DNA of 64,000 nucleotides from contig CALMQX010000041.1 of the NCBI GenBank assembly GCA_937873315.1, forward strand, positions 94,072-158,071, in the 5' to 3' direction. The notes beneath the pieces are model-generated. The model searched no databases and had not been told where the DNA came from. It saw only the letters and a list, made by a program, of their open reading frames with translations. Position numbers and translations under genes: made by a program. Origin of the DNA: an uncultured Nostocoides sp. (GTDB lineage: Bacteria > Actinomycetota > Actinomycetes > Actinomycetales > Dermatophilaceae). This document shows positions 941 to 61,990 of this stretch, piece by piece. Each line of letters begins with the position of its first letter. Positions within the stretch are counted from its first letter, which is position 1.

Positions 941-1972
941 ATGGTGCTGGGCATGTTCGCATCACACCGCGTGTCCGACCCGATGACCGCGCCTGCGTTG
1001 CGCTGGGGCATCCTCGGCGCGGGCGGCATCGCTGGTCATTTCGCCGCCGCCGTTCATGAGGCAACTGCAAGCACGGTGGTCGCGGTCGGTTCACGCGACC
1101 AGGGCCGAGCGGATGCGTTCGCCCAAGCACACGGCATACCGGCCGCACACGGGAGCTATGCGGCGCTCGTGGCCGACCCCAGCGTGCAGGCGGTGTACGT
1201 CGCGTCACCGCACTCCGAGCACCGAGAACACGCGCTGCTCGCGTTGGCAGCCGGCAAGCCTGTCCTGGTCGAGAAGGCCTTCACCCGCAGCCGCGCCGAG
1301 GCTATCGAGGTGTTCGCCGCCGCCCGAGCCGCCAGCCTGCTGGCGGCGGAAGCCATGTGGAGCCGCTACCTGCCGCACTACGACGCGATCGCGCGCACGA
1401 TCACCGCCGGCACTCTGGGCGAGGTGGTCCACGTCCATGCCGACCACAGCCAGCTGCTCTGGCCCAATGGGCCGCAGCGGCTCTGGGATCCGGCGCTGGC
1501 CGGTGGCTCCCTGCTGGACCTCGGCGTCTACCCCGTCGCTTTCGCTGACCTCATCCTCGGCGGCCTCACCGACGTCCGGGCCACCGGGACGCTCACGCCC
1601 GAGGGGGTCGACGCCACGGCCGTCATCAGCGCGCGAGGTGCCACAGGGGGCCAGGCCGTCCTCACCAGTTCGATGGCTGGCGCCGCCGCCTGCACCGCGA
1701 CCGTTGTGGGCACCCAAGCCCGGATCGAGCTGGATGGGCGCTTCTACCAACCCACCACGATGCGACTCATCGCCACCAACGGCGAGCTCTTGGACACCTT
1801 CACTCCCGAGCACCAGTTCCACGGATTCCGTTACGAGATAGCCGAATTCGCGCGAACCCTCGCCACTGGTGCGATCGAGACCGAGCGTATGCCGCACGCG
1901 ACGACGCTTGCGGTCATGGACGTCCTGGACCAGGCGCGAGCACAGCTGGGCGTGCGCTACCCCGGGGAGTGA
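941..1972 (+). CDS. Gfo/Idh/MocA family NAD(P)-dependent oxidoreductase
   Basis: Up to 343 residues. An N-terminal Rossmann nucleotide-binding motif (WGILGAGGIAGHF) is followed by the family EKAF segment (VLVEKAFTRSRAEA), containing the conserved Lys, and the C-terminal alpha/beta domain (GGSLLDLGVYPV). Such enzymes oxidise or reduce sugars, cyclitols or trans-dihydrodiols; the substrate cannot be told here. A -10-like CAGTCT ends 6 nt before the ATG at 941, which would make a leaderless message. The ATG at 983 (MTAPALRWG) is closer to the conserved fold and remains an alternative start. It stands alone, convergent with the lyase gene at 1979. Confidence 0.88.
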   Translation: MVLGMFASHRVSDPMTAPALRWGILGAGGIAGHFAAAVHEATASTVVAVGSRDQGRADAFAQAHGIPAAHGSYAALVADPSVQAVYVASPHSEHREHALLALAAGKPVLVEKAFTRSRAEAIEVFAAARAASLLAAEAMWSRYLPHYDAIARTITAGTLGEVVHVHADHSQLLWPNGPQRLWDPALAGGSLLDLGVYPVAFADLILGGLTDVRATGTLTPEGVDATAVISARGATGGQAVLTSSMAGAAACTATVVGTQARIELDGRFYQPTTMRLIATNGELLDTFTPEHQFHGFRYEIAEFARTLATGAIETERMPHATTLAVMDVLDQARAQLGVRYPGE

Positions 1973-1978
1973 CCAGCG

Positions 1979-2851
1979 TCAGGACGCGGCGATGATCGCC
2001 TCGTGCGTCGCCAACACGCGCTCGGCAATGTCGACATGCAAGCGCTCGATCATCTTCCCGTTGTAGGTGACCACGCCGGTGCCAGCACCCTGCGACCACG
2101 CGGCAACGATGCCTTCGGCCTCCTGGACCGCATCGGCAGAGGGCGCGAATACGTCATTGCACGGACCCACCTGGCCCGGGTGGATCAGGGTCTTGCCGTC
2201 GAAGCCGAAGTCCCGACCCTGCTCGCATTCGGCAAGGAAGCCCTCTGCGTCCGCAACGTTGTTGTAGACCCCGTCGAGGATGGCAATTCCCGAGCGGCGC
2301 GCCGCCAGAACGGCCCAGGAGAGCGCCGTCAGCAGCGGCGCACGCCCAGGGACGTGCTGTGCTTGGAGCTCCTTGACCAAGTCGTTGGTGCCGATGACCA
2401 ATGCGGCCAGACGGTCCGATGCGGCCGCGATCTTGCGGACCAGGTGAATCGCCTCCGGGGTTTCGATCATCGCCCACAACCGGGTGTGCGCCGGGGCCCC
2501 ATGGGACTGCATGGCCGCGACCAGCTGGCGCACCTCCTTGGGCGAGTTCACCTTGGGGACGACGATCCCATCCGGACCTGCGGCACAGGCGGCGGCCAGG
2601 TCGGCGTCATGCCATTGGGTGCCGATGCCATTGATCCGGATCGTCACCTCACGGCGACCATACTCACCGGATTTGGCTGCCGCGCAAGCATTCTCGCGCG
2701 CGGCGTCCTTGAAGTCCGGGCCGACAGCATCCTCCAGGTCGAGGATCAGTCCGTCGACCGGAAGTGTCTTGGCCTTCTCGAGCGCACGTTCATTCGAACT
2801 CGGCATGTACAACACAGACCGTCGGGGGCGGTAGGCTGCGCTGGCACCCAT
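1979..2851 (-). CDS. HpcH/HpaI aldolase / CitE-like CoA-ester lyase
   Basis: 290 residues. It opens with RRSVLYMPSSNERALEKA, typical of CitE-like proteins, and has the acidic metal-binding motif LILDLEDAVGP followed by the second ligand region (LWAMIETPEAI). Family members cleave citryl-CoA, malyl-CoA or beta-methylmalyl-CoA, or act as malyl-CoA thioesterases, using Mg2+. No citrate lyase alpha or acyl-carrier gene is nearby, so a malyl-CoA-type activity is more likely than citrate lyase. It starts 3 bp after the stop of the paralogue upstream (2855-3934, same strand), so the two are probably cotranscribed and may act sequentially or as a complex. Confidence 0.85.
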   Translation of the reverse strand: MGASAAYRPRRSVLYMPSSNERALEKAKTLPVDGLILDLEDAVGPDFKDAARENACAAAKSGEYGRREVTIRINGIGTQWHDADLAAACAAGPDGIVVPKVNSPKEVRQLVAAMQSHGAPAHTRLWAMIETPEAIHLVRKIAAASDRLAALVIGTNDLVKELQAQHVPGRAPLLTALSWAVLAARRSGIAILDGVYNNVADAEGFLAECEQGRDFGFDGKTLIHPGQVGPCNDVFAPSADAVQEAEGIVAAWSQGAGTGVVTYNGKMIERLHVDIAERVLATHEAIIAAS

Positions 2852-2854
2852 CGC

Positions 2855-3934: not shown

Positions 3935-3977
3935 GCTGGCGACGCTATCAGCGGCACACTGTGGGACGCTGGTGCCC

Positions 3978-4547
3978 GTGAGCGAGCCCACCCTGAGCCC
4001 GGAGAGCGCTGCCGCGAGCGCCCCGGCAGCAGGCGCCAGCGTCAACGTCGGCCGGCTGGTGCAGGAGGCTGCCAACGCCTCGTCGGTGCTCTGGATTGAG
4101 CTCCCGGATGGTGCCAGTCACCCCGCGTGGTTCGTGTGGGATCCCGCTGGAGATCCGCTCGGCACCGGGCCTGCGGCATATGTCGTCTCGGGCCCCGGTG
4201 AGCAGCAGTTGCCGGACCTGCCCACCCAGGTGACCCTGATCCTGCGCAGCAAGGACTCGGGGGGACGGCTCTTGCGGATCGGCGCGGACGTGGCCCGGGC
4301 GACCCCGAGTTCCCCGGAGTGGGATGCCCTCGTTGGCCACCTCGCTCCCGCCCGCCTCAACGCCCCCGCCGAAGTCACCCAGACGTGGCGCGAGGGGTGC
4401 ACGATCTGGATCCTCTCCCCGCACGGCCGACCCATTGAGGCGCCCGGCTCGTATGCCGCCGACGCCCATCTGGTGGAGGTCCTTCCGGCACCCGCGGCGA
4501 CCGTTCGTTGGCGGCCCTGGCACCTGCGTGGTCGTCAGCGTCGATGA
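3978..4547 (+). CDS. Conserved hypothetical protein, possibly split-barrel fold
   Basis: 189 residues from the GTG at 3978; a GTG at 3972 and an ATG at 3933 are in the same frame, but the latter abuts the divergent lyase start. The first 25 residues are Ala/Ser/Pro-rich. The central part ([50 protein letters not shown]) alternates hydrophobic strands and loosely recalls a pyridoxamine-phosphate-oxidase-like split barrel, but I do not see a diagnostic flavin motif. The C-terminus is basic (HLRGRQRR). It lies 51 bp before the MgtE-like gene on the same strand. Function unknown. Confidence 0.7.
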
Positions 4548-4585
4548 GGGTGGTATCCCGGGCGCTGTTGCTCGGCATACCCCGC

Positions 4586-5891: not shown

Positions 5892-6402
5892 GCGCCGCCC
5901 CCGGATCGACCAGCCCCGCGAGACCCCCCGCCGCTGGAAGATCAGTGCGCCCGCGGGCTTCACCGAGGAGTACTTCGGTGTGCTCTCGGAGCGGATCGCG
6001 CGCTTCCTCGGCACGCCCTATTTCATCGCGGGGATGACGGCCTTCATTGCAGGGTGGATCCTCTGGAACACCTTCGCTCCCGCGGCGCTGCGCTGGGATG
6101 AGTACCCCTTCCAGTTCCTTAACGTCATGCTCAGCCTGCAGGCTTCGTATGCCGCACCGCTGATCCTGCTCGCGCAGAACCGTCAGGCGGATCGGGACCG
6201 CTTGGCCTTCGAGCAGGACCGATCCCGCGACGAGCGGAATCTCGCGGACACTGAGTTCCTCACCCGCGAGGTGGCCTCATTGCGTCTCGCGCTGCGCGAG
6301 ACCGCGACCCGTGACTTCGTGCGCTCCGAGTTGCGCGATCTGCTCGACGAGATGGAGGAGCGCGGCCTCACGGTCACCAAGTCCTCCTCAGGGGACGCCT
6401 AA
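5884..6402 (+). CDS. DUF1003 family membrane protein
   Basis: 172 residues. A cytoplasmic basic N-terminus is followed by two closely spaced transmembrane helices (about residues 47-66 and 80-99; FIAGMTAFIAGWILWNTF and the LNVMLSLQASYAAPLILLAQ hairpin). The C-terminal tail (105-172) is highly charged and helical, probably a coiled coil. This is the standard DUF1003 layout; its role is unknown. The start codon overlaps the end of the MgtE_N/CBS gene by 8 bp, so the two are translationally coupled. A strong inverted repeat follows the stop at 6411-6469. Confidence 0.85.
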   Translation: MAERRPRIDQPRETPRRWKISAPAGFTEEYFGVLSERIARFLGTPYFIAGMTAFIAGWILWNTFAPAALRWDEYPFQFLNVMLSLQASYAAPLILLAQNRQADRDRLAFEQDRSRDERNLADTEFLTREVASLRLALRETATRDFVRSELRDLLDEMEERGLTVTKSSSGDA

Positions 6403-6483: not shown

Positions 6484-7617
6484 ATGCCCCAGGTCACCCA
6501 GGATGCTCTTCGCGCTGCCCTTGATACGGTTCTCGACCCCGAGATCCGCAAGCCCATCACCGAGCTCGGGATGGTCGAGTCAGCCACCTGTGACGATCAG
6601 GGCCTCGTCAGGGTCACCGTGCTGCTCACCGTGGCGGCTTGCCCCCTCAAGGACACCCTCACCCGCGATGTCACGAACGCCGTCTCAGCGGTCGCCGGGG
6701 TCAGCGCGGTCGAGGTCACGCTCGGGGTGATGAATGACGAGCAACGCACCGCTCTGCGGACCCAGTTGCGTGGGGGCAACGCTGAGCGTGAGATCCCCTT
6801 CGCCAAGCCTGGCTCGCTCACCCGGGTGTATGCCGTGGCCTCCGGCAAGGGCGGGGTCGGCAAGTCCTCGGTGACGGCCAATCTGGCGGCCGCGCTGGCC
6901 GAGCAGGGCCTGAAAGTCGGGGTCGTGGACGCCGACATCTACGGTTTCTCGATCCCCCGCATGCTGGGCGTCGCCGGCAGCCCCACTCAGGTGGACGACA
7001 TGATCCTGCCGCCGATCGCCCACGACGTGAAGGTGATCTCGATCGGGATGTTCGTCCCCGGCAACCAGCCTGTGGTCTGGCGTGGCCCGATGCTGCACCG
7101 CGCGCTGCAACAGTTCTTGGCCGATGTGTTCTGGGGCGACCTCGATGTCCTGCTGATGGACCTTCCCCCGGGCACCGGTGACGTGGCGATCTCGATCGCT
7201 CAACTCGTGCCGAATGCCGAGATCCTCGTCGTCACGACCCCCCAGACCGCGGCCGCCGAGGTGGCCGAGCGCGCCGGCTCGATTGCCGTGCAGACTCACC
7301 AGCGGATCGCCGGCGTCATCGAGAATATGTCTTGGCTGGAGTTGCCCGATGGCAGCCGCCAGGAGATCTTCGGCAGCGGCGGCGGTCAGGCGGTCGCCGA
7401 CTCGCTCTCCACGGTGATCGGGGCGCCGGTCCCGCTGCTCGGTCAGATTCCGCTGGACACCACGCTTCGGGTGGGCGCGGACGAGGGCACCCCCGTGGTC
7501 CTCGGTTCACCGACTTCACCGGCAGCGGTGGTCTTGCGTGGGATCGCCCGCGGCCTGGCCAACCGAGCCCGCGGCCTGGCCGGTCGCTCTCTGGGACTGA
7601 CCCCGACCGGCCGATAG
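6484..7617 (+). CDS. mrp: Mrp/NBP35 family P-loop ATPase (iron-sulfur cluster carrier type)
   Basis: 377 residues. An N-terminal MIP18/DUF59 domain (about 1-95, VLDPEIRKPITELGMV) precedes a ParA-like P-loop domain with the deviant Walker A SGKGGVGKSSV (about 121), switch VVDADIYGFSIPRML and Walker B LLMDLPPGTGD. Family members bind and transfer Fe-S clusters or act as ATPases in cofactor delivery. I see no CxxC pair in the C-terminal region where Mrp cluster ligands usually sit (around MSWLELPDGSRQEIFGSG). Convergent with tatB (14 bp gap); the same gene set surrounds sigE in mycobacteria. Confidence 0.92.
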   Translation: MPQVTQDALRAALDTVLDPEIRKPITELGMVESATCDDQGLVRVTVLLTVAACPLKDTLTRDVTNAVSAVAGVSAVEVTLGVMNDEQRTALRTQLRGGNAEREIPFAKPGSLTRVYAVASGKGGVGKSSVTANLAAALAEQGLKVGVVDADIYGFSIPRMLGVAGSPTQVDDMILPPIAHDVKVISIGMFVPGNQPVVWRGPMLHRALQQFLADVFWGDLDVLLMDLPPGTGDVAISIAQLVPNAEILVVTTPQTAAAEVAERAGSIAVQTHQRIAGVIENMSWLELPDGSRQEIFGSGGGQAVADSLSTVIGAPVPLLGQIPLDTTLRVGADEGTPVVLGSPTSPAAVVLRGIARGLANRARGLAGRSLGLTPTGR

Positions 7618-7631: not shown

Positions 7632-8024
7632 CTAGGTCGCGTCCGGGTCGTAGGGCGTGGCCCGAGCGGGATCCCACGCGCGCGCCTGAACGGCGGCCAC
7701 CTGGGTATCCGCAGCGGCGTCCGCCACCGGTGGGGTATAGCCCGGACGCAACGGAGCGACCGCATCGTCGATGGGATCGAGCAGAGCCTCACGCACAATC
7801 TTGCGCGGGTCGTACTGCCGCGGGTCGTACTGGCGCCAATTGACGTCCTGGTACTCGGGTCCTAGCTGCTCTTTGAGTTGGCCCTTGGCGCCCTCGGCCA
7901 TGACCCGCAACTGCCGGATCCACTGCGCCAACTTGGCGGCATACTCCGGCAACCGCTCGGGACCCAGGATGAAAAAGGCAAGGAGCGCGACGAGCAGGAT
8001 CTCCCCGAGGGTGAAGTCCGGCAC
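7632..8024 (-). CDS. tatB: Sec-independent (Tat) translocase TatA/TatB-family protein
   Basis: 130 residues from a GTG start. It has the expected short N-terminal membrane helix (LGEILLVALLAFFILGPERLP, written here as TatB-type with the FxxGPERLP hinge), an amphipathic helix (YAAKLAQWIRQLRVMAEGAK) and a polar C-terminal tail. TatB binds twin-arginine signal peptides with TatC at the cytoplasmic membrane. The tail contains a tandem RQYDP duplication (DNA repeat of period 15 at about 7805-7832). It lies 24 bp downstream of the HtrA gene on the same strand, as in the mycobacterial sigE locus, so cotranscription is likely. Confidence 0.88.
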   Translation of the reverse strand: MPDFTLGEILLVALLAFFILGPERLPEYAAKLAQWIRQLRVMAEGAKGQLKEQLGPEYQDVNWRQYDPRQYDPRKIVREALLDPIDDAVAPLRPGYTPPVADAAADTQVAAVQARAWDPARATPYDPDAT

Positions 8025-9471: not shown

Positions 9472-10086
9472 TCACAGCGTGCCGGCAGCCGGACGCCGGA
9501 TGACGGGGCGGGGAATCGATGCCGTCAGGCGACGCGGAGCCGGGGCTCGGTGCGCCAATGCCGCGCGCAACTGCGCGCGACCACGGTGGATGCGAGAGCG
9601 CACGGTGCCCAACTTGATGCCGAGAGTTTCGGCGACCTCTTCATAGGTCAGCCCCTCGATATCGCAGAGCACGACCGCGGCGCGGAAGTCCGGCGAGAGC
9701 GCGGCGAGCGCCTTCTGGATGTCGTCATCGAAGTGCGTGTCGGCATACAACTGGTCCGGGCTCACACTGCGGCTGGGGATACGAGCAGCGGCTTCCTCGG
9801 ACAGAGCGTCGATGCGAATGCGCTGGCGACGGCGCATCTTGTCCAGGAAGACGTTCGTGGTGATCCGGTGCAGCCAGCCCTCGAAGGTGCCGGGCCGGTA
9901 GGTGTGGAGCGAGCGGAAGACCCGGACGAAGACATCCTGGGTGAGGTCCTCGGCGTCGTGCACATTCCCCGTGAGTCGGTAGGCCAGCCGATAGACCCGG
10001 GCGGAGTGCTCGGTCACGACCTCCTCCCAGGTGGGCGGGGTCCAGTCGTCGGTGGCCGTGGTGGCGGTGAGGACATCGGTGCTCAT
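9472..10086 (-). CDS. sigE: ECF RNA polymerase sigma factor, SigE-like
   Basis: 204 residues from the ATG at 10086; a GTG at 10143 would add 19 residues but no conserved sequence. Region 2 is clear ([29 protein letters not shown], described by its [10 protein letters not shown] core), and region 4 has the helix-turn-helix [25 protein letters not shown]. Synteny with an O-methyltransferase upstream and divergent, and with htrA and tatB downstream, matches the mycobacterial sigE locus, where SigE controls envelope stress. The zinc anti-sigma gene rseA usually found between sigE and htrA is absent; only 34 bp separate them. Confidence 0.9.
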
Positions 10087-10192
10087 GACACAGATGTCTA
10101 CGCTGCTCGTCCGGGAAAACCGATGGTGTTTCCTGGACGTCACCTGTGAATCCTCGTCGGTATGCCGCCAGTCGCCTGCTGCGCGAGCGAGT

Positions 10193-10204: not shown

Positions 10205-10840
10205 ATGAGCGCACTCAGCCACGCCAGCTGGACCTACACCGAGGACTTCGTCGCCGAGCCCGAGGTTGTCGAAGAAGCTCGGCGGCGGGGCCTGGAGACC
10301 GGCATCGCCATCCCCGTGGGAACCGGCGCCGGGGCGGCCTTGCGGGTCCTGGCCGCTGCATCGGGTGCCAAACATGTGGTCGAGGTGGGCACCGGCTGCG
10401 GGACCAGCGGGCTGTGGCTGCTCCAAGGGATGCCCGACGATGGGGTCCTGACGACCATCGACTCCTCCGCCGATCATCAGAAGGTTGCCAAGGCGGCCTA
10501 CGCGCGCGCGGGCTACGCCCACCAGCGCACGCGGATCATCAATGGCGAGGCGTCCCAGGTGCTCTCCCGGATGACAGACGGCGCCTATGACCTGGTGCTC
10601 ATCGACGCCGACAAGGCGGGTTACCCGGCATACGTCGAGCACGCCCTGCGACTGCTGCGCCCCGGCGGTCTGATGGTGATCGACAACATGCTCTGGGACA
10701 ACCAGGTCGCCGATCCGGCGGTTCGCGACACCACGACAACGACGCTGCGCGACCTCGGCAAGGAACTACGCGATCGGGACGACGTGATCGCGGCGCTCTT
10801 GCCGGTCAGTGACGGCCTCCTGGTGGCCGTGCGCCGCTGA
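10205..10840 (+). CDS. O-methyltransferase family 3 (SAM-dependent)
   Basis: 211 residues. Class I methyltransferase fold: VEVGTGCGTSGLWLL (motif I, SAM loop, about residue 61), LTTIDSS (motif II acidic residue), YDLVLIDADKAGYPAYVEHAL (shown by its VLIDADK core with metal-binding Asp) and GGLMVIDNMLWDNQV, typical of catechol O-methyltransferase-like enzymes. Small-molecule substrate unknown. Divergent from the sigE-like gene, the same arrangement as Rv1220c beside sigE in Mycobacterium tuberculosis. The upstream -10 supports the ATG at 10205 rather than the longer frame from 10031. Confidence 0.92.
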   Translation: MSALSHASWTYTEDFVAEPEVVEEARRRGLETGIAIPVGTGAGAALRVLAAASGAKHVVEVGTGCGTSGLWLLQGMPDDGVLTTIDSSADHQKVAKAAYARAGYAHQRTRIINGEASQVLSRMTDGAYDLVLIDADKAGYPAYVEHALRLLRPGGLMVIDNMLWDNQVADPAVRDTTTTTLRDLGKELRDRDDVIAALLPVSDGLLVAVRR

Positions 10841-11231: not shown

Positions 11232-12613
11232 GACATTCCTTCGAGATAGCGCAGCAACAGCCGCGTGCCGAAGCCGGTCGCCCCCTTGGCGAAGATGCCG
11301 GCGTCGTCATCCGAGCGACCCGGACCAGCAATATCGAGGTGGGCCCAGGGCACCTCCCCCACGAACTCGCGCAGGAAGAGAGCCGCATAGACCGCACCGG
11401 CAACTCCACCGGGGACGACATGCGCGAGGTCGGCAACCTCGGACGACAGGTCAGCACGGTATGCCGTGGGCAGCGGCATACGCCACAGCGTCTCACCGGT
11501 CGTCTCACCGGCCGCGATCAGAGCATCGACCAGCGGGTCACTGGTGCCAAAGACGGGCGCTACCGAGCGCGAAAGCGCGATCCGGGCGGCACCGGTCAGC
11601 GTGGCGATGTCGATGATCGCTCGGGGCGCCAGACGAGTGGCGGCATACGCCAGTGCGTCGGCGAGCACGATCCGACCCTCGGCATCGGTATTGCCGATCT
11701 CGACCGTCGTCCCCCCGTATTGCGTGATCACATCGCTCGGGCGGTAGGCCGCACCACTGATCGCGTTCTCCGCGAGCGGGAGCAGTCCGGTCACCGGGAA
11801 GGGCACCGCCAACTCCTGACAGGCGGTGAGCACGGCCAGGACGATGGCCGCCCCGGACATATCGGTCTTCATGGCCAGCATGCCGTCAGCGGTCTTGAGG
11901 TCCAGGCCCCCGGTGTCGAAGGTGATGCCCTTGCCGACCAGGACGACCGGCTCGGCCCCCCGCTTGGGAGTGCCAACAGGCCGCCAGTCCAGTTGGACCA
12001 GCCTGGGGCCGGTGGCTGAGCCACCGCCGACCGCCAGCAGTCCCCCGAAGCCCTCGGTGGCCAATGAGCGTTCCGTCCAGACGGTGCTGGTGAGCCCGGC
12101 GCTGCGCGCCATCGTGACAGCCTGGCGGGCCAGCCAGGCAGGGTTCTTGATGTTTGACGGCGTGGTGGCCAAGGTGCGGGCAAGGAGCGCAGACCGGGTC
12201 CGCACGACTGCTCGATCCAGATCGATCGGTGCGCTACCCACCAGCACATGGGTGGACCGCCGCAGCTCGGTGGTCGGTCCTTGGGCATCCCAGCGCGGCG
12301 AACGCCAGCGGGCGAGGGTCACGGCCTCAACGTATGCAGTGAGATCGGCCTCCGGCCCATGAGCGCCGGCCAGGTGAGTCACCAGTGGGTCATGCCTGGT
12401 GCGGGCACCCACGGCAGCCCCAGCCTTGGTGAGGTCCGCCTGCGAGCCATCTCCCGTACCCACCGCTAGGGCCGCGGCGCTGGCGGTCTGCTCGATGGAC
12501 CCCGCATCAAATCCCGGTACCAAGGTGATCACGGTGCCAGCCGTGTCGGGGGCCTCCTGGACGTGCTGCCACGTCGGGACTGGCGGGCTGAGCAGGTCCA
12601 ATCGTCTGGTCAC
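11228..12613 (-). CDS. pepA: Leucyl aminopeptidase, M17 family
   Basis: 461 residues from a GTG start. An N-terminal macro-like domain is followed by the catalytic domain with its di-metal signatures: LVGKGITFDTGGLDLK (Lys and Asp), MKTDMSGAA (Asp) and the family signature NTDAEGRIVLADAL (Asp, Glu, catalytic Arg). M17 enzymes are hexameric di-zinc/manganese exopeptidases that release N-terminal residues from peptides in the cytoplasm. A -10 (TAAGTT, minus strand, 12620-12625) ends 6 nt before the start, consistent with leaderless transcription. The small gene at 10848 is coupled downstream. Confidence 0.93.
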   Translation of the reverse strand: MTRRLDLLSPPVPTWQHVQEAPDTAGTVITLVPGFDAGSIEQTASAAALAVGTGDGSQADLTKAGAAVGARTRHDPLVTHLAGAHGPEADLTAYVEAVTLARWRSPRWDAQGPTTELRRSTHVLVGSAPIDLDRAVVRTRSALLARTLATTPSNIKNPAWLARQAVTMARSAGLTSTVWTERSLATEGFGGLLAVGGGSATGPRLVQLDWRPVGTPKRGAEPVVLVGKGITFDTGGLDLKTADGMLAMKTDMSGAAIVLAVLTACQELAVPFPVTGLLPLAENAISGAAYRPSDVITQYGGTTVEIGNTDAEGRIVLADALAYAATRLAPRAIIDIATLTGAARIALSRSVAPVFGTSDPLVDALIAAGETTGETLWRMPLPTAYRADLSSEVADLAHVVPGGVAGAVYAALFLREFVGEVPWAHLDIAGPGRSDDDAGIFAKGATGFGTRLLLRYLEGMS

Positions 12614-17728: not shown

Positions 17729-17735
17729 ACGCCCG

Positions 17736-18642: not shown

Positions 18643-18663
18643 ACGCGCTGGGCTCCTGTCGGG

Positions 18664-36172: not shown

Positions 36173-36235
36173 AGCCCCGCCCCACGGCATACCCATCCCT
36201 GACACACCTCACCGCGAAAGGCAGGCGAGCGCCAC

Positions 36236-39970: not shown

Positions 39971-40028
39971 CGCCGCAGTCTCGCACGTGCAGCGAGGTGT
40001 GACGGCATACGGCTGATCCTCTGGCAAG

Positions 40029-47970: not shown

Positions 47971-48039
47971 ACCTGCCAACACAGAAACCCCCGAAGGTCA
48001 GCACCTGCCAACGCACGCGGCGAGCGGACGGCATACCCT
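47971..48039 (+). promoter_or_regulatory. CoA-transferase promoter with 32-bp-spaced direct repeats and leaderless -10
   Basis: ACCTGCCAAC occurs at 47971-47980 and at 48003-48012, 32 bp apart (three helical turns). TACCCT (48034-48039) is the -10 and ends 6 nt before the GTG at 48046. The second repeat ends 21 nt before the -10. The carbamate kinase promoter has the same layout with CCTGACAAC. Confidence 0.6.
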
Positions 48040-50804: not shown

Positions 50805-51737
50805 ATGAGGGTTCTGCTCGCGCTGGGCGGCAACGCCATGACTGCCCCGGATGGCAGCGCGACGCCCGCAGCCCAGATCGAAGCCGTCGGCGTTGCCATG
50901 CAGGCCGCGGCCCGGCTCATCGCGGCCGGCCACGACCTCGTCATCACCCACGGCAATGGCCCCCAGGTTGGCAATCTCCTGGTCAAGAACGAGTTGGCCG
51001 CTCATGTGGTCCCGCCGGTGCCGCTGGACTGGTGCGGTGCGCAGACCCAGGGGACGCTCGGCTTCACCATCCTCAACCAACTCGATGCCGCCCTTTTGGC
51101 CGCTGGCGTGGCCCGGCCCGTTGCCGCCCTGGTGACCCGAGTCCTGGTCAATGGCGACGATCCCGGGTTCACGCACCCGACCAAACCCATCGGCCGATAC
51201 CTCCCGCACGACACGGTGCAAACGCTCATCGACCATGGTCAGACGTGGCAGGACCGCGGCGAGCGCGGCTGGCGGCGCGTGGTTGCCTCCCCGGAGCCTC
51301 TGGAGATCCTGGACGTCGCCGCAATCCGAGCCTTGGTGGACGCCGGGTATGCCGTCTGCGCGGCTGGGGGCGGCGGCATACCGGTCGTGCGCGATCCGGA
51401 CGGGCGCCTGCGCGGGGTCGAGGCGGTTATCGATAAGGACCTCACGGCCGCGCTCCTCGGCCGCGCCATCCACGCCGACGTCCTGGTCATCGCCACCGAT
51501 GTCGACCACGCGGCGATCGATTTCGGCACCCCCGCCCAGCGCGAGCTCACCGCGGTCAGCGTGGACGAACTGCGCGCGTATGCCGCCCAAGGCCAGTTCG
51601 CTTCCGGCTCCATGGGGCCCAAGGTGGATGCCGCCTTGCGCTTCGTCGAGCAGGGCGGGCCGCGCAGTGTCATCACCTCTCTCACCCATATCACCGACGC
51701 GGTCGAGGGCAACTTCGGCACCTGCATCGAGCACTGA
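50805..51737 (+). CDS. arcC: Carbamate kinase
   Basis: 310 residues, normal family length. Amino-acid-kinase fold with LLALGGNAM at the N-terminus, [46 protein letters not shown] and [12 protein letters not shown], and near the C-terminus [18 protein letters not shown]. The enzyme transfers phosphate from carbamoyl phosphate to ADP, giving ATP, or the reverse. No arginine deiminase or transcarbamoylase gene is present; instead the next gene (11 bp away) is an AtzD-family amidohydrolase, so carbamoyl phosphate may come from a ureido compound. Confidence 0.94.
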
Positions 51738-52954: not shown

Positions 52955-54355
52955 GTGGACCCGGTCGAGCCGATGGCGCAGGACACCGGCGCGGCCACTT
53001 CCGATCGACCCTCACGGCTGTCGGGGGGCGCTCGCCAGGTCACCCGCGCCCTGGGCCGCACCGTGCGGGCCACCGCCCGGGCGACAGCCACGGGCGGACG
53101 GCGCTCAAGCGCGGCATTCCAGGCCTTCGCCCGCCGCGATGGGGCCGACGCCTCCGGCCTGACCCGGTTCATCGAGATGCACACGGTGGAGGTCGCTGCC
53201 GACTCTGCGCTAACCGTGAGCCTGGCCGGCACGGTCTTCGCCATGCCCACCGGTCAGGCGCGCGGCGCCGTGGCGCTCTTCTTGCTGCTCACGATGGCAC
53301 CCTTCGTCCTGCTTGCGCCCTTCGTCGGCCCGGTCCTGGACCGTTTCCGCCATGGCCGCCGCTGGGCCATCGGGGCGACTCTCGCGCTCCGGGGCTTCAT
53401 GTGCTGGGTCCTCGCGGGGGCAGTATCGACCGAGTCCGCCTGGGTCTTCCCGCTCGCCCTGGCGTGCTTGGTCGCGAGCCGGGCGTATGCCGTGGCACGC
53501 GCGAGCGCCATCCCGAGGCTGCTGCCCGATGGCATGGACCTGGTCACCGCCAACTCGCGCATCATGATCGCCGGCCTGATCGGCATGGGCCTCGGCGGCG
53601 GCCTGGCTGGCCTCCTCAGCCGCGGTGGCGCCGAGTGGTCCTTGCGGCTCGCGTTCGCGATCTACGTCGTGGCCACCGTGCTCTCAATCCGACTGCCGGC
53701 CCAGGTGGACACCGCAGTGACTGCGGAAACGCCGCGAATCCGCCCGCCGCTGCGCAGCCTTCCCGAGGAGCGGCTACGTCATCTCCCCCACCGCGTGCTG
53801 CACGCGCTGATCATCATGGGCGGAGCCAGATTCCTGGTCGGATTCCTGACGCTCTACCTGATCTTCTTGACCCGGGAGAACCCCATCCCCGGCTGGTCGA
53901 CCCCGGTATTGATCGGCGCCGCAGTGGTCGCGGCCGGGCTGGGCAACATCCTCGGCTCGCTCCTCGGCAATACCAAGGTCGCTCCCCCGCCGACCCCGAC
54001 GCTGGTCCTGCTCGGTATTGCCGGCGTGGTCAGCGCCGTACTCGCCGCATTCTTCTACGCGCTGTGGAGCCTGCTGCTGGTCAGCTTCGTCGGCGGCGTC
54101 TACACCCAGCTCGGCAAGCTGTGCCTGGACTCGATCATTCAGGCAGAGGTGCCGGAGTCACGGCATAGCCGCGTCTTCGCGTGGATCGAGACGACCCTGC
54201 AACTGACCTGGGTGGCTGGTGGCGCACTGGCGATCGTGCTTCCGCTGGAGCCGACGATCGGCTTCGGGGTCACGGCGTTTTGCCTGGTCATCGGCTTTGT
54301 GGGCGCGGTGCGCCTGCGCGCCCAGGGGTCGCGGATCGGCGTCACTTCACCTTAG
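52955..54355 (+). CDS. Major facilitator superfamily transporter
   Basis: 466 residues from a GTG. A long cytoplasmic N-terminus (about 1-85, Arg/Ala-rich) is followed by about 11-12 membrane helices; the loop between helices 2 and 3 has the MFS-type DRFRHGRRWAIGAT. It resembles the conserved actinobacterial MFS protein family of unknown substrate (compare Rv0876c). Whether it belongs functionally to the preceding amidohydrolase operon or is a housekeeping protein is open. It overlaps the convergent DUF1801 gene by 14 bp. Confidence 0.86.
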   Translation: MDPVEPMAQDTGAATSDRPSRLSGGARQVTRALGRTVRATARATATGGRRSSAAFQAFARRDGADASGLTRFIEMHTVEVAADSALTVSLAGTVFAMPTGQARGAVALFLLLTMAPFVLLAPFVGPVLDRFRHGRRWAIGATLALRGFMCWVLAGAVSTESAWVFPLALACLVASRAYAVARASAIPRLLPDGMDLVTANSRIMIAGLIGMGLGGGLAGLLSRGGAEWSLRLAFAIYVVATVLSIRLPAQVDTAVTAETPRIRPPLRSLPEERLRHLPHRVLHALIIMGGARFLVGFLTLYLIFLTRENPIPGWSTPVLIGAAVVAAGLGNILGSLLGNTKVAPPPTPTLVLLGIAGVVSAVLAAFFYALWSLLLVSFVGGVYTQLGKLCLDSIIQAEVPESRHSRVFAWIETTLQLTWVAGGALAIVLPLEPTIGFGVTAFCLVIGFVGAVRLRAQGSRIGVTSP

Positions 54356-54710
54356 GTATGCCGTGGCGCGCCATCACGGCGTCCACGAAATCGCGGATCG
54401 CAGGCTTAGCCTCGACGGCGGCATATTTCACGCTCACCGAACCCTTGCCGCCGAACGAACCGGCGATGGACTCCTTCGCCTCCTGCACCAGGTCGAAGTC
54501 GATGGCATGCGCGGTGAAATGTTTCGCGGCCGCCGTGAACATCACATAGCCCTTGAGGTAGGAGTCCGCGAACTTGTACATCGGCACCTGCCGGAACATC
54601 GTTGGTGCCACGCTCGGGTAGTGGCGATCGACGTACTCCCAGAACTCGATGAGCCATTCACGCCCGGGCGTCGGGGCGCTGTCGAGGTAGTCCTGGGGGC
54701 TCTCGTTCAT
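54342..54710 (-). CDS. DUF1801 family protein (YdhG/iron-chaperone-like)
   Basis: 122 residues. The N-terminal ESPQDYLDSAPTPGREWLIE, the central TMFRQVPMYKFADSYLKGYV and MFTAAAKHFTAHAIDFDLVQ, and VSVKYAAVEAKPAIRDFVDA match the DUF1801 (YdhG_co) fold seen in putative frataxin-like iron chaperones. Small, cytoplasmic and without cysteines. It lies 10 bp downstream of the region of the purH stop on the opposite side: its start (54710) is separated from the purH stop (54721) by 10 bp, so it may be the last gene of the purN-purH operon. Confidence 0.82.
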   Translation of the reverse strand: MNESPQDYLDSAPTPGREWLIEFWEYVDRHYPSVAPTMFRQVPMYKFADSYLKGYVMFTAAAKHFTAHAIDFDLVQEAKESIAGSFGGKGSVSVKYAAVEAKPAIRDFVDAVMARHGIPKVK

Positions 54711-54720: not shown

Positions 54721-56352
54721 TTAGTGTGCGAAGTGACGGGTCCCCGTGAAGTACAGGCTGACCCCGGCCGCTTGCGCAGCGGCGATCACCTCGGCATCGC
54801 GCATCGACCCTCCGGGAGCCACGACCGCTCGCACGCCCGCGTCGAGGAGGATCTGCAAGCCATCGGCGAACGGGAAGAAGGCGTCCGAGGCGGCCACTGC
54901 GCCCTGGGCGCGCTCAGCGCCCGCGCGGGAGACCGCCAGGCCGCAGGAGTCGACCCGGTTGACCTGGCCCATCCCGATCCCGACCGAGCCGCCATCGCGG
55001 GCCAGCAGGATCGCATTGGACTTCACGGCTCGCACGGCCCGCCACGCGAAAGCCAGGTCGGCCATGGTCGCGTCATCAGCGGCCGGGCCCGCGACCAGAG
55101 TCCAGTTGGTCGGGTCATCGCCGCCGGTGGACTCGCCGGTCTCCGGGTTCGACACCACGGCATCGATGGTGTCGCGCTGCTGCATCAGCAGGCCACCGGA
55201 GATCACGCGCACCTCCACCCCACCGAGGCTGGGCGGCGGGCATTGCAGCAACCGAATGTTCTTCTTCTGCGTGAGGATCGCCAGCGCCTCGGGCTCGAAG
55301 GAGGGGGCGATGACCACCTCGGTGAAGATGTCCTTGACCGCGTCGGCTAGCTGCGGGGTGACCGGGCGGTTCACCGCGATGATGCCGCCGAAAGCCGAGA
55401 CCGGATCGCAGGCGTGTGCCTTGAGGTGCGCCTGCGCGATGTCCTCGCCGACCGCGATGCCGCAGGGGTTGGCGTGTTTGATCACTGCGCAGGTCGGCTG
55501 GTCGCCGTGGTCATAGGCCGCTCGCACGGCGGCGTCCGCGTCGATGTAGTTGTTATACGACATCTCCTTGCCGTGCAGGACGACCGCTTGAGCGAGTCCT
55601 GGTTGCGGCTGAAAACCGTTGGTGTAGAGCGCTGCTCGCTGATGAGGGTTCTCGCCGTATCGCAGCACGGCCGCCTTATCCCAGGTCGCACCCAGCCACG
55701 CGGGGAAGCCGGTGCCATCGGAGGTGTCGGCATAGGCATTGCCCATCCAGGACGCCACCTGAGTGTCATAGGTCGCGGTGTGTACGAAGGCCTGCGCCGC
55801 CAGCCGCTTGCGCTGCACGAAGGTGAAGCCGCCGGCGCTTACGGCAGCCAGCACATCGGCATATGTCGCCGGGTCGGTGACCACCGCGACACTCGGGTGA
55901 TTCTTGGCGGCGGCGCGCACCATCGACGGCCCACCGATGTCGATATTCTCGACAATCTGGTCCGCGGCCGCACCGGAGGCGACGGTCTGGGTGAACGGGT
56001 ACAGGTTGACCACGACCAGGTCGAAGGGGGCAACCCCGAGGTCATCGAGTTGGGCGAGGTGATCGGGCTTGCGCGTGTCCGCCAGCAAGCCAGCGTGCAC
56101 CATCGGGTGCAGCGTCTTGACCCGCCCTTCGAGGCACTCGGGGAACCCAGTGAGCTCCTCCACCTGGGTGACCGGAATGCCGAGTGAGCCGATGAGCGCG
56201 GCCGAGCCGCCGGTGGAGACCAGCGCCACACCGGCCTCGTGCAGCCCCCGAACGAGGTCCTCCAGCCCGGTCTTGTCGAACACCGAAATCAGGGCACGGC
56301 GCACCGGACGCACGTCCTGGGTGGGGCCGGGAGGGGAGACGCTGACAGCCAT
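54721..56352 (-). CDS. purH: Bifunctional AICAR transformylase / IMP cyclohydrolase
   Basis: 543 residues from the ATG at 56352, preceded by AAGGAGCCCTT; the open frame continues to 56619, but that part is riboswitch and purN antisense frame. N-terminal IMP cyclohydrolase domain ([52 protein letters not shown]) and C-terminal AICARFT domain ([29 protein letters not shown], with the Lys-His pair). It makes the last two steps to IMP. A ZTP riboswitch lies directly upstream, matching regulation by the folate/AICAR shortage signal. Confidence 0.96.
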
Positions 56353-56367: not shown

Positions 56368-56446
56368 TCGGTGAGCACCCAGGCGGGCGATGCTCACGGC
56401 CAAAGACTCCCTGGTGGTCGCCCACCTGCGCCAGTCGTCAGGTCGA
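56368..56446 (-). promoter_or_regulatory. ZTP (pfl motif) riboswitch upstream of purH
   Basis: On the minus strand the aptamer core matches: GACTGGCG (56429-56436), GGTGGG (56421-56426) pairing with ACCACC (56413-56418), CAGGGAG (56407-56413), then a P3 hairpin GTGAGCA/TGCTCAC (56371-56377 with 56391-56397) whose loop holds CCGCCTGGG (56378-56386). This order is that of ZTP riboswitches, which sense ZMP/ZTP and often control purH. The outer P1 stem looks weak by eye. It sits 4 bp after purN, and about 15 nt before purH translation, so control of translation is plausible. Confidence 0.9.
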
Positions 56447-56449: not shown

Positions 56450-57037
56450 CTACCGGCGTCGAGCCGGTTCTCCGCTCGCGTGCTCGCGGCCGAGGGCGGC
56501 CACGACCTCGACCAGCATGTCGCGCTCAACGACCTTGATGCGCTCATGCAGGCTTTCCTCGGTGTCCCCGGCCTCGATGCGGACGCAGCGCTGATCGATG
56601 ATCGGCCCGGTGTCGACACCGGCGTCCACCCAATGCGCTGTGCAGCCAGTGACCTTCACCCCGTGGGCGAGGGCGTCGCGCACGCCATGGGCGCCCGGGA
56701 AACTCGGCAGCAGGGCCGGGTGAGTGTTGATGATGCGGAACCGGCTCAGCACGGTTGGCCCGAGGATCTTCATGAAGCCAGCACACACGACGAGATCGGG
56801 ATCGTGCGCCGCGATCGCTTCCGCGAGGGCCTCATCCCAGGCCGCCCTCGTGGGGTACTCGGGTGCCCGCACGATGAAGCTTGGTATGCCGTGACGCTGC
56901 GCCCGCGCCAGGCCCTCGATCGAGCCCCGATCGGCGCCAACGGCCGCGATCTCCACGCCATACACGGGGTCACCAGCGGCATCGAGCAGTGCTTGGAGGT
57001 TGGTTCCGGATCCGGAGACGAGGACGACGATGCGCAC
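56450..57037 (-). CDS. purN: Phosphoribosylglycinamide formyltransferase
   Basis: 195 residues from the GTG at 57037. Formyltransferase core: [16 protein letters not shown] (phosphate loop), [40 protein letters not shown] (catalytic Asn and His) and [20 protein letters not shown] (His and catalytic Asp). It uses 10-formyl-tetrahydrofolate in purine synthesis. It starts 4 bp after the stop of the DUF6350 gene and ends just before the ZTP riboswitch, so DUF6350, purN and purH form one operon with an internal riboswitch. Confidence 0.95.
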
Positions 57038-57041: not shown

Positions 57042-58277
57042 CTATCTTCGCAGCCGCCACGCGTCGATGAGCGCCATGACCACCGCGCCGAGCGCCAACT
57101 CGGCCACCAGCGCGAGGAAGAACCAGCCGGTCGGAGCCCCGAGATTGGCCAGCTTCGTCCGGCCAAGCGCACCGCCACCGAGGAGGTCGAGGACGGCGAG
57201 CGAGGCGGCCGTCACCACGGCGGTCACCAGGGCGACCTCGACCTTGCTCCGCACGGAGGACAGCCGGGCGATCGATCCGACCGCACGGTGGCCGGCATAC
57301 GCGCCCACGGCCACCGGGATCAGGACGGCCAGGGCGGCATACCACGGGAAGTCGCCGGGCTGCGGAAGGGCCGCGAACACCGGGATCAGCGGCATCAACG
57401 CGCCCCGTGAGCCGGACCAGGTCGTGGTCGCGCCATCGGCGACCTGGAACCCGGGGCCAGCAGCAAACGAGAGCGCCCACAGACTGAGGTTGGGAGCGGC
57501 GGTGATTTGCAGGGCGCTCATCGCGATGGCACCGAAGGTCCCAGCGCCGAGTGCAGCGTGCACGCGGCTGACCTCGCCGATGCCGAAGGCCAGGGCGACC
57601 ATGACCAACGCGAACCCAGCGCCCAGCGCGACTCCGGTGGAGCGGATCGCCGGGGCGACTGCTCGGCGCACCACCATCGGTACCCGGTCGAGATCGAGTC
57701 GGGGGCCGACGGCATAGGGCTCATCGCTCACGAGCCGAGCGACCACGATGATGATGGCGACGACGGGAACACCCAGGAGCGGAAGCAGGACGGTCCACCA
57801 CACCAGCCCAAACGGGCCAGCGAGGGCGAGTCCGGCGGCCACCAGTACCACAGCGGCATAACCACCCCACCATGCGCCGATCGAGGCGGCGATCGGGGTA
57901 CGGACCAGGCCGTACCAATGGGGTCCGTCCGCGGCCACCCCGCGCAGCGCCTCACGCAGTCCGAACCAGGCGGCCCCGACCGCGCCCACAGTGAGGAGCA
58001 GCGGGGTGATCGAGACGACGAGGTGCGCGGTCGTGAGCGTGACGCCTTGTCCGAGCAGCCAGAGGGCGGCCCCAGCACCGACCACCGACATCCCCGAGCC
58101 GCTGGAACGCCGGTCCAAGAGCCACGCCAAGAGCGAGATCACCACCGGGAGCGACAACGAGCCGAGGCCGGTGACCACACCGACAACAGCCGCGCGCGCT
58201 GCACCGGGAGGGGCAACCTCCGACTCCTCCTCAGGGGAGGCGTCGGTCTCATCGTGGAGACGGTCCAAGGTGCTCAT
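57042..58277 (-). CDS. DUF6350-type polytopic membrane protein
   Basis: 411 residues. After a cytoplasmic acidic start (about 1-25) there are about nine or ten hydrophobic helices (for example VISLLAWLLDR, LVVSITPLLLTVGAVGAAWF, YAAVVLVAAGLALAGPF). No catalytic motif is recognised. The family is common directly upstream of purN in Actinobacteria; its job is unknown. The gap to purN is 4 bp. It starts 160 bp from the divergent sigma factor gene. Confidence 0.82.
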   Translation of the reverse strand: MSTLDRLHDETDASPEEESEVAPPGAARAAVVGVVTGLGSLSLPVVISLLAWLLDRRSSGSGMSVVGAGAALWLLGQGVTLTTAHLVVSITPLLLTVGAVGAAWFGLREALRGVAADGPHWYGLVRTPIAASIGAWWGGYAAVVLVAAGLALAGPFGLVWWTVLLPLLGVPVVAIIIVVARLVSDEPYAVGPRLDLDRVPMVVRRAVAPAIRSTGVALGAGFALVMVALAFGIGEVSRVHAALGAGTFGAIAMSALQITAAPNLSLWALSFAAGPGFQVADGATTTWSGSRGALMPLIPVFAALPQPGDFPWYAALAVLIPVAVGAYAGHRAVGSIARLSSVRSKVEVALVTAVVTAASLAVLDLLGGGALGRTKLANLGAPTGWFFLALVAELALGAVVMALIDAWRLRR

Positions 58278-59789: not shown

Positions 59790-59801
59790 TGCCGGCATCC
59801 G

Positions 59802-59841: not shown

Positions 59842-59859
59842 TTAGCGTTCGGCGCACCG

Positions 59860-60753
59860 TCAGGAGGGCAACCCCGCCATGATCTCGCGCATGAGGGCAG
59901 CGGTCTCGGAGGGCGTCTTGCCGACCTTGACGCCAGCGGCCTCGAGGGCCTCCTTCTTCGCCTGAGCCGTGCCCGAGGAGCCGGAGACGATGGCGCCAGC
60001 GTGGCCCATGGTCTTGCCCTCGGGGGCGGTGAACCCAGCGACATAGCCGACCACCGGCTTGGTCACGTTGTCCTTGATGTATGCCGCGGCCCGCTCCTCG
60101 GCGTCGCCGCCGATCTCGCCGATCATGACGATCGCCACGGTCGCCGGGTCAGCCTCGAAGGCCTCCAGGCAGTCGATGTGCGTGGTGCCGATGATCGGGT
60201 CACCGCCGATACCGACTGCGGTCGAGAATCCGAAGTCACGCAGCTCGAACATCATCTGGTAGGTCAGGGTGCCGGACTTGGATACCAGGCCGATCCGACC
60301 CGGACCCGAGATGTCCGCGGGAATGATCCCGGCGTTGGAGGTGCCGGGGCTGATCAGACCGGGGCAGTTCGGGCCGATCAGGCGCGTGGTGCCCTTGTCC
60401 TTGGCGTAGTTATAGAACTCCGCCGTGTCACGAACGGCAACGCCCTCGGTGATGACCACCGCGAGCGGGATCTGTGCGTCCACCGCCTCGATGACCGCGG
60501 CCTTGGTGAATGCCGCCGGCACGAAGATCACCGAGACATTCGCGCCGGTGGCGTCGATGGCCTCCTGCACCGTGCCGAAGACCGGTACGGTCTCGCCGCC
60601 CGGGAAGTCGACCGAGGTGCCCGCCTTGCGCGGGTTCACGCCACCCACGATCTGGGTGCCGGAGGCGAGCATGCGCGTGGTGTGCTTCATGCCCTCGGAG
60701 CCGGTCATGCCCTGGACGATGACCTTGCTGTTCTCGTCGAGAAAGATTGCCAT
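59860..60753 (-). CDS. sucD: Succinate-CoA ligase, alpha subunit
   Basis: 297 residues. CoA-binding N-terminal domain ([36 protein letters not shown]) and ligase domain with [11 protein letters not shown] and the active-site phospho-His segment [13 protein letters not shown]. It joins SucC to interconvert succinyl-CoA and succinate with nucleotide phosphorylation in the TCA cycle. It starts 34 bp after the sucC stop on the same strand. Confidence 0.96.
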
Positions 60754-60787
60754 TGCTGTCTCTTGCCGTCCTGTCGTCTTCTCGAAG

Positions 60788-61990
60788 TCAGTTCACGCCG
60801 GCGGCGAGCTCGGCGACCCGGCGCGCGGCGCCGTCCATGGTGTCGACCCGCTCCAGCAGAGGGAGTTGGGCCTGGTCGAGGATGGCGCGGCCTTCCTCGG
60901 CGTTATTGCCATCGAGGCGCACGACGAGCGGCTTGGGCGTCTTGCCGTGACCCTGCAGGATCCCGTAGGCCTGCACAATGCCGTCAGCGACCGCGTCACA
61001 CGCGGTGATGCCGCCGAAGACGTTGACGAAGACCGCCTTGACCTGGCCATCTTCGAAGATGACGTCCAGTCCATTGGCCATGACCTCGGCATTCGCGCCA
61101 CCCCCGATGTCGAGGAAGTTCGCGGGTGCCGGGTGCGTGCCATCGGCGCGGGGGAACTCCTGACCGGCATACGCCACCACGTCCAGGGTCGACATGACGA
61201 GGCCGGCGCCATTGCCGATGATGCCGACGTCGCCGTCGAGCTTGACATAGTTGAGGCCGCGCTCGATGGCGAGAATCTCCAGCGGGTCGGTCTTGGAGTG
61301 GTCGACGAACGCCTCATGCTCGGGGTGACGGAACTCGGAGTTGCCGTCAATGGAGACCTTGCCGTCGAGCGCCAGGATGGTGCCGTCCTCGGTCTTGACC
61401 AGTGGGTTCACCTCGACCAGGGTGGCGTCCTCGTCGCGATAGACCTCCCAGAGGCGACTGATGACGTTCTTCAGGGCGGCGTGGTCCTCCGCGGGGAAGC
61501 CGGCCTGCTCCACGATCTCCTGCGCCTTGGCGTCATCGATGCCCACGTTGGGGTCGACCGCGATCATGGCGAGCTTGTCGGGCTGCTCCACGGCGAGGGT
61601 TTCGATGTCCATGCCGCCCTCCTTGGAGCACATGGCCAGGTAGCGCCGGTTCGCGCGGTCGAGCAGGATCGAGAAGTAGTACTCCTCGGCGATCCGGGCG
61701 CCCTGGGCGATCATCACCGTCTTGACCGTGTGGCCCTTGATGTCCATCCCGAGGATGGCCGCGGCATACTCCTGCGCCTCCTGCGGGCTCTTGGCGACCT
61801 TGACGCCACCTGCCTTGCCGCGGCCACCGGTCTTGACCTGGGCCTTGACCACGGTGACGCCGCCGCTCTGGGCACCGATCTCCTCTGCGGCCGCACGGGC
61901 CTGCTCGGGAGTGGTGGCAATGGCGCCGGCAAGCACGGGCACGCCATGCTTCTCGAACACGTCACGTGCTTGGTACTCGAAGAGATCCAC
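60788..61990 (-). CDS. sucC: Succinate-CoA ligase, beta subunit
   Basis: 400 residues from a GTG preceded by GGAAAG. ATP-grasp fold: [60 protein letters not shown] (metal ligands) and [39 protein letters not shown]. First gene of the sucCD operon. Upstream is a 330-bp gap shared with the divergent M23 peptidase gene. Confidence 0.96.

Follow-up and report, generated by a model that had tools for sequence, protein, structure and literature searches.

To our knowledge, uptake sequences have been described in two Gram-negative families. The DNA uptake sequences (DUS) of Neisseriaceae are dense, lie on both strands, and occur both within and between genes, and the uptake signal sequences (USS) of Pasteurellaceae are likewise dense and symmetric, with more than one dialect in the family. 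Other abundant words offer further points of comparison: known Chi sites show a leading-strand bias, and HIP1 of cyanobacteria is a very abundant palindromic octamer in one lineage. DUS dialects have fixed positions in common, at times occur two per genome, and are congruent with phylogeny (PMC3630211), and the minor pilin ComN is the predicted USS receptor (PMC12616744). Micrococcus luteus carries the pilus clusters tad-1 and tad-2, comEA/comEC, and an FtsK/SpoIIIE gene beside tad-1 (PMC4322843, PMC8467076), and its tad clusters are needed for transformation (PMC4322843); the wording "uptake sequence" is absent from the main text of PMC4322843. Here, we analyzed a 64-kb window of DNA (64,000 nucleotides; contig CALMQX010000041.1, positions 94,072 to 158,071) from an uncultured Nostocoides sp. 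We found that one octamer, GTATGCCG, is strongly over-represented in it, and we predict that this word is, on balance, probably a tag resembling a DNA uptake sequence.

The window holds 63 exact copies of GTATGCCG, 31 on the + strand and 32 on the - strand. By comparison, 100 dinucleotide shuffles of the window contained a mean of 1.41 copies and a maximum of 5, and a third-order Markov model predicted 3.4. No other octamer in the window is as frequent (63 copies versus 37 for the runner-up). The original prediction, made from the letters of the window alone, had claimed about 63 copies at an assumed GC content of about 67%, and both figures stand (measured GC, 67.5%), as does its even strand split, given as 32:33 for 65 heptamers. 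Its counts for the heptamer GTATGCC were also reproduced exactly, with 63 of 65 occurrences extended by G. The bases flanking the octamer are weakly biased (C or T is mildly preferred after it, in 27 and 23 of the 63 copies), and thus the unit is the octamer. Small details were off: the first copy starts at 1132 rather than 1133, and of two one-letter variants put at about 8 and 5 copies, CTATGCC occurs 9 times, close to the earlier figure, but ATATGCC occurs 8 times, which is higher.

A genome-wide count, which the original prediction had named as its test, demonstrates that the excess extends beyond the window. GTATGCCG is the commonest octamer of the 158-kb contig that holds the window (143 copies; next, 84), and the whole genome (2.98 Mb in 42 contigs) contains 2311 copies (1164 + and 1147 -), or 0.78 per kb. 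The word is therefore about 15-fold commoner than a reversed control, the letters of GTATGCCG read backwards, which occurs 150 times (78 + and 72 -). Moreover, under a fourth-order model with the motif masked beforehand, 254 copies were observed in 270 kb where 9.1 were expected. A depletion of near-miss words that appeared under the third-order model was gone under this masked model, and we therefore do not claim it.

Could codon usage or assembly account for the excess? With a home-made codon-usage caller, we predicted 252 genes in 270 kb of the genome. Of the 63 copies in the window, 56 lie wholly within called genes and 7 do not; of the 254 copies in the 270 kb, 214 are genic, 38 are intergenic, and 2 sit on gene edges. 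All six combinations of strand and frame are used, unevenly, with 99 copies reading TAT GCC in the sense frame, which bears out the earlier claim that copies occupy at least three codon frames and also lie between genes. Synonymous-codon shuffling (30 shuffles) left 19 in-gene copies (standard deviation 4.5, highest 28) versus the 214 real ones, so the excess survives the correction for Tyr-Ala and Ala-Tyr dicodon usage under which it had been expected to vanish if it were a coding effect. Tyr-Ala pairs number 266 and Ala-Tyr pairs 264, versus 218 expected for each, and pairs of Phe-Ala, His-Ala, and Trp-Ala are fewer than expected; thus, the word even seems to bend protein sequence. An artefact of codons, dicodons, or assembly could draw on the commonest coding frame of the word, in which 150 of the 266 Tyr-Ala pairs are written TAT GCC, but the shuffling result already refutes it, and it would not produce intergenic copies, copies in all six frames, or the identical word in cultured, named genera. 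Adapter carry-over is excluded because the window contains no instance of CGGCATAC in its Illumina P7 context and the flanks of the copies vary. We therefore give an artefact virtually no weight.

Strong enrichment of GTATGCCG is limited, among the sampled genomes, to Intrasporangiaceae/Dermatophilaceae. The nearest relatives of one window protein belong to Knoellia, Phycicoccus, Janibacter, Tetrasphaera, and their kin; NCBI places Knoellia in Intrasporangiaceae, and we take Dermatophilaceae to be the GTDB name for the family. The original prediction was therefore right to treat the source as an actinobacterium. We surveyed 58 genomes of the order, 36 from this family (one per genus) and 22 from other families. 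The excess is common to 21 of the 36 family genera, which carry 939-4724 copies, and the remaining 15 carry 11-293. The ratio to the reversed control among the 21 enriched genera is 2.5 in G015 and 5 to 26 in most others. The 22 genomes from other families carry 2-167 copies. In a survey of 396 genomes of the phylum, 3 of the 4 family members were strongly enriched and none of the 392 others reached 0.1 copies per kb, the highest being G351 at 0.09 per kb (161 copies in 1.8 Mb versus 30 of the control). Contigs of about 21 kb from named genera gave the same picture: six Knoellia contigs hold 13-19 copies each, Janibacter sp. HTCC2649 19, Tetrasphaera australiensis 23, Phycicoccus elongatus 21, and Terrabacter sp. 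Root181 16, versus 0-2 in Nocardioides and Rhodococcus contigs.

The word also occurs in dialects. In a survey of 49 family genomes, with 20-310 kb read per genome, 32 were counted as motif-bearing and 17 as motif-less, the latter by a threshold of our own that leaves weak excesses in some. In 30 of the 32 motif-bearing genomes, a dialect word ranks first or second among all octamers by excess; G024 was counted with GTACGCCG ranked 11th, and G018, whose 20-kb stretch was too short, was counted by its whole-genome number (1581). GTATGCCG is the word in most of these genomes, and GGATGCCG, GAATGCCG, GTATGACG, GTATGCGG, and GTACGCCG, each one letter off, replace or accompany it. For example, GTATGACG occurs together with GTATGCCG and GTATGGCG in G003, G004, and G027, and G012 combines GAATGCCG (23 copies versus 1.3 expected) with GTATGCCG (13 versus 0.8). 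GGATGCCG is the word of G016 (30 versus 3.3) and G026 (74 versus 8.2) and is weak in G001, and GTATGCGG is that of G020 (24 versus 1.5). GTACGCCG, found in G023, G024, G062, G070, and G075, is the least certain dialect because its excess is 3.6- to 6.7-fold. CGATGCGG in G078 (64 versus 14.3) differs from the main word at three letters. All seven words, GTATGCCG to CGATGCGG, have A3, G5, and G8 in common. Further stretches of 12-21 kb carry GTATGCGG in Nostocoides sp. F2B08 (L010) and in a contig of an Intrasporangiaceae metagenome-assembled genome (MAG; L011), and GGATGCCG in a Dermatophilaceae MAG contig (L006). Weak excesses in motif-less genomes include CGATGCCG in G009 (38 versus 15.6) and, in G019, GTACGCCG (16 versus 5.8) and GTATGCCG (293 versus 130 for the reversed word). 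On a quick tree of 40 genomes, built from ComEC, LeuS, and DegV, 8 changes are needed for the motif-less state and 17 for all states. Since motif-bearing genera stand in both main clades, we infer that the motif was ancestral in the family and has been lost repeatedly.

Two genomes showed word usage of another kind. In G069 (L212-L214), which lacks the TadA of tad-1, GTATGCCC (11 versus 1.1) and GTATGCCT (5 versus 0.6) are enriched as if position 8 were relaxed. In G059 (L137, L161, L162), G runs and a different word, CGAAGGGG (51 versus 7.9), are strongly over-represented.

Single sites are conserved between species. Across orthologous 21-kb loci of six Knoellia and one Janibacter (L001 was excluded as more distant and less colinear), the octamer was found unchanged at the corresponding position 274 times in 366 ordered comparisons (75%), which are non-independent and involve 104 distinct copies. 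Baseline identity at the same loci was 32% for all octamers, 37% for GC-matched octamers, and 24% (332 of 1371) for flanking octamers. Per base, identity was 0.84 and 0.68 just outside the octamer and 0.93-0.98 inside it, except for 0.80 at position 4. Of the 38 single-letter differences between aligned copies, 23 fall at position 4 and 15 at positions 1, 2, 3, and 7. Site conservation, the dialects, and the synonymous shuffling together uphold the earlier proposal that selection, or drive, acts at the level of DNA.

The word has no detectable strand polarity in the stretches read. In stretches of 26 genomes, 488 copies lie on the G-rich strand versus 507 (167:193 where the skew exceeds 0.02), and in this genome 54 kb with a skew near -0.03 split 26:25. 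The first 0.64 Mb of G015 holds 100 + copies versus 91.7 from the genome mean, and the first 0.54 Mb of G073 holds 100 versus 108.7. These tests, which follow the strand-skew check suggested with the original prediction, rest on GC skew and on stretches without located origins; within them, no replichore or GC-skew bias was seen. This lack of polarity counts against roles like those of FtsK-orienting polar sequences (KOPS) and of classically biased Chi sites. In G073, a 65-kb stretch (C1:64349-129299) is devoid of + strand copies, the only ones scored there, and is possibly an acquired island.

What might read such a word? This genome encodes ComEC and, adjacent to it, a ComEA with SLBB and helix-hairpin-helix domains. 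It also has two Tad (Flp) clusters. The tad-1 cluster encodes TadA, TadB, TadC, a 76-aa protein, TadE, a second TadE-like protein (by position), and a TadE/G-like protein, and tad-2 encodes a TadZ-like protein (by position), TadA, a fused TadBC, a DUF4244 protein that we take as the Flp pilin, and a TadE-like protein (by look). An FtsK/SpoIIIE gene adjoins tad-1. We considered this gene as the reader of the word and found no support for it, as it lies close to tad-1 whether or not a genome bears the motif. Among 59 family genomes, comEC was found in 56, with an adjoining comEA at 39 of 40 loci, and tadA-like ATPases (T2SSE) were found in all 59. Because these genes are nearly universal, they do not explain the presence or absence of the motif. 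The TadA of tad-1 is absent from 8 of 17 motif-less versus 1 of 32 motif-bearing genomes (Fisher p 0.0002 for the 46 genomes on the tree, uncorrected for kinship). We formed the tad-1 hypothesis after the T2SSE survey had been seen, and then predicted in advance that the tad-1-less genomes G067, G069, and G077 would be motif-less and that twelve named tad-1-bearing genomes would mostly be motif-bearing. Of the nine genomes tested, the prediction was right for six (G067, G077, G064, G065, G070, and G075) and wrong for three (G069, G074, and G080).

In several genomes tad-1 is interrupted. In G007 and G028, which represent two genera, inserts of 11 kb and 34.8 kb (L229 1357-12350, and L230/L231) interrupt tadA within the Walker A region. 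These inserts carry large serine recombinases at one end, the G028 insert having been read at its two ends. In G017 the tadA match likewise ends at residue 209, a long way from the end of the contig, and tadA of G021 lies in pieces on two contigs, which may reflect an assembly break. In G026 the break falls within tadC and the tadE genes are gone from the 20 kb read, and in G020 the end of tadC is lost, with no further tad-1 gene in the 3 kb read beyond it. The G007 insert holds 1 copy of the word versus 12.3 expected at genome density, and the interrupting stretches of G026 and G020 hold 0 copies of their dialect words versus 5.2 and 1.3 expected; such foreign DNA is thus poor in the tag. Disruption of competence genes by inserted elements is known from elsewhere (PMC4774983). 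Because elements here split tadA in the same manner, we take tad-1 to be the putative transformation pilus of the family, an assignment with circumstantial support. A D5_N protein and a protein resembling type I restriction enzymes are also encoded by the G028 element, and the stretch interrupting tadC in G026 (L201 2020-7660) carries a GmrSD-type restriction gene.

The density, symmetry, dialects, and site conservation of GTATGCCG match those of DNA uptake sequences, and for this reason we favor a role of that kind. Import machinery would prefer tagged DNA, so that DNA of close kin, and not foreign DNA, would be taken up and recombined. The word might be read at the cell surface by part of the tad-1 or tad-2 pilus, or by ComEA. 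Biased uptake and recombination would then spread and keep the word by molecular drive, a shift in the specificity of the reader would lead to genome-wide rewriting and hence to dialects, and loss of the machinery would leave the word to decay. Dialects that mostly differ by one letter across copy-rich genomes call for a process that rewrites sites. Biased uptake supplies such a process and a static binding site does not, but a repair drive supplies one as well, and we therefore keep the rival explanations in view. More tentatively, we propose that this may be a Gram-positive DNA uptake sequence system in which a Tad (Flp) pilus, and not a type IVa minor pilin, reads the word. The system would be ancestral in the family, repeatedly lost, and rewritten across genomes into at least six dialects, and would represent a third independent origin with different machinery.

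A number of observations weigh against an uptake role. Of the com and type IV pilus genes that the original prediction had suggested inspecting, comEA, comEC, and the Tad clusters are present, but the type IVa pilin (PF07963) was not found in this genome and is present in 2 of 59 family genomes; thus, the known type of DUS receptor (ComP) is absent here. Every motif-less family genome searched has comEC, and the 3 of 59 in which no comEC match was found (G029, G033, and G034, all fragmented assemblies) bear the motif. On the tree, the association with tad-1 comes down to 3 concordant and 0-1 discordant independent pairs and is not significant. TadA of tad-1 is kept in 9 of 17 motif-less genomes (uninterrupted in 8, split in G028), and in 7 of those 8 every tad-1 gene was found. 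Conversely, G069 has the motif and lacks this TadA, G026 and G020 have strong dialects despite a tad-1 broken in tadC, and tadA of G064 contains an in-frame stop. Intergenic enrichment is modest (38 copies versus 22 expected by length over the 270 kb), and copy spacing is more even than chance in one contig, where 2 of 5000 simulations gave as low a value, whereas another contig shows no such evenness (2889 of 5000). The motif-less genomes with tad-1, together with G069, G026, G020, and the comEC-less genomes, make the link between motif and pilus a tentative one.

The main rival is a Chi-like signal read by the helicase-nuclease AdnAB, or by another end-processing enzyme, in break repair. The length and density of the octamer would suit such a signal, and an adjacent pair of long PDDEXK_1 proteins, which we take as AdnAB although they were assigned without an AdnAB model, occurs in all 18 genomes examined, so that the word could belong to recombination. 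Moreover, the motif is rarer where RecC is present (RecC in 8 of 31 motif-bearing versus 10 of 15 motif-less genomes, p 0.011 uncorrected), as if RecBCD could replace a motif-dependent enzyme, and a recombination role might explain this pattern better than uptake does. Yet the association is not significant on the tree, RecC was not found in this genome and occurs in 21 of 59 family genomes, and 5 of the 18 genomes that keep the AdnAB-like pair are motif-less. The word also lacks the strand bias of known Chi sites, and a repair enzyme would pay dearly for repeated changes of dialect unless some drive rewrote its sites. We therefore consider a Chi-like role unlikely, and of the three options offered by the original prediction, uptake is favored, Chi is weakened, and a nucleoid-protein site keeps a small share of the probability.

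A genome-wide site for a nucleoid or chromosome-organizing protein would fit the spread of the word over the whole genome and the strong conservation of its sites. An essential architectural site would not usually differ in dialect between sister genera or be gained or lost 8-10 times on the trees, however, and the lack of strand polarity in the stretches read speaks against this role as it does against a KOPS-like site for FtsK; we regard it as improbable. More doubtful still is a functionless mutational or repair drive, similar to Vsr, that converts near-miss words into the motif. Such a process has the attraction that a change in enzyme specificity would rewrite the genome automatically and yield dialects, and the concentration of 23 of 38 differences at position 4 is what it might leave behind. 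The other 15 differences, at four further positions, do not fit it, nor do the near-miss words, which are mostly near expectation or in some cases enriched (GAATGCCG, 62 versus 19.6), none of it depletion. The Tyr-Ala excess (266 versus 218) would, in addition, be an amino-acid cost paid for a useless process.

The copies in the window, listed here as exact matches to GTATGCCG on both strands, are distributed along its length. Apart from the intergenic and paired copies given below, those on the + strand are at 1887-1894, 4451-4458, 6147-6154, 6828-6835, 14732-14739, 15500-15507, 17087-17094, 18511-18518, 21243-21250, 23316-23323, 28217-28224, 30355-30362, 30944-30951, 35750-35757, 37213-37220, 38007-38014, 38093-38100, 42654-42661, 43365-43372, 44062-44069, 49337-49344, 51578-51585, 53485-53492, 54356-54363, 56884-56891, and 60079-60086. 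The - strand has copies at 1132-1139, 7937-7944, 9741-9748, 10626-10633, 11641-11648, 13579-13586, 16678-16685, 17723-17730, 18637-18644, 23058-23065, 25503-25510, 27476-27483, 29073-29080, 32311-32318, 32800-32807, 38667-38674, 41279-41286, 42183-42190, 42228-42235, 49621-49628, 57293-57300, 57335-57342, 61165-61172, and 61762-61769. Intergenic copies lie at 10160-10167 (+) and at 4573-4580, 36185-36192, 40003-40010, and 48029-48036 (all -). Several + and - copies form inverted pairs no more than 70 bp apart: 11459-11466 (+) with 11474-11481 (-), 43873-43880 (+) with 43932-43939 (-), 46459-46466 (+) with 46504-46511 (-), and 51347-51354 (+) with 51374-51381 (-). In L081 (12049-12147; G000:C2), a gene that looks like an aminotransferase has at its 3' end a short tandem array of five octamer copies spaced 13/26 bp apart. 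The window also contains a ZMP/ZTP riboswitch at 56370-56446 (-), scoring 39.9 bits versus a gathering threshold of 39, directly upstream of a purH-type gene (AICARFT/IMPCHase, 54721-56352, -), which is an ordinary arrangement.

Why would a tag of this kind matter? We found no report of an actinobacterial uptake sequence in the open literature, the search leaving most subscription journals and bioRxiv outside its range. Literature matches to the word itself are swamped by the Illumina P7 adapter, in which CGGCATAC lies, and no genome motif appeared among the titles listed. If the uptake reading is true, such tags extend beyond two Gram-negative families, and a third, independent case in high-GC Gram-positives would indicate that self-DNA recognition evolves repeatedly. 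It would also suggest that Tad pili or ComEA hold a DNA receptor of a new class. Moreover, a family with cultured members and with dialects in sister genera would allow the co-evolution of receptor and word to be tested directly, and the finding would tell experimenters which tag donor DNA needs for transforming these bacteria.

How, then, does GTATGCCG compare with described systems? It resembles HIP1 in being a very abundant octamer in one lineage, but it is not its own reverse complement. It resembles the Chi sites of RecBCD/AddAB as a short, non-palindromic, over-represented word, and differs from them in showing no strand bias; a RecBCD Chi site was rejected because RecC is absent from this genome, and KOPS because polarity relative to replication was not seen. 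With Neisseriaceae DUS it shares dialects that have fixed positions in common, follow phylogeny, and sometimes coexist in pairs in a genome, as well as density and occurrence on both strands and in genic and intergenic DNA. It differs from them in its 8-bp word, with A3, G5, and G8 common to the seven words here, in its high-GC Gram-positive host, and in the Tad (Flp) pili that take the place of the type IVa pilin and ComP. Given the absence of a ComP-type receptor, we place it with DUS and USS in presumed mode of action but outside the Neisseriaceae DUS family. In density, in symmetry, and in having several dialects per family it is like Pasteurellaceae USS, whose sequence is unrelated and whose hosts are Gram-negative. 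Finally, this genome is like that of Micrococcus luteus, with its Flp/Tad-dependent transformation, in the layout of tad-1 and tad-2, in comEA/comEC, and in the FtsK/SpoIIIE gene that adjoins tad-1, but the 22 genomes from the other families of the order show no strong enrichment of GTATGCCG.

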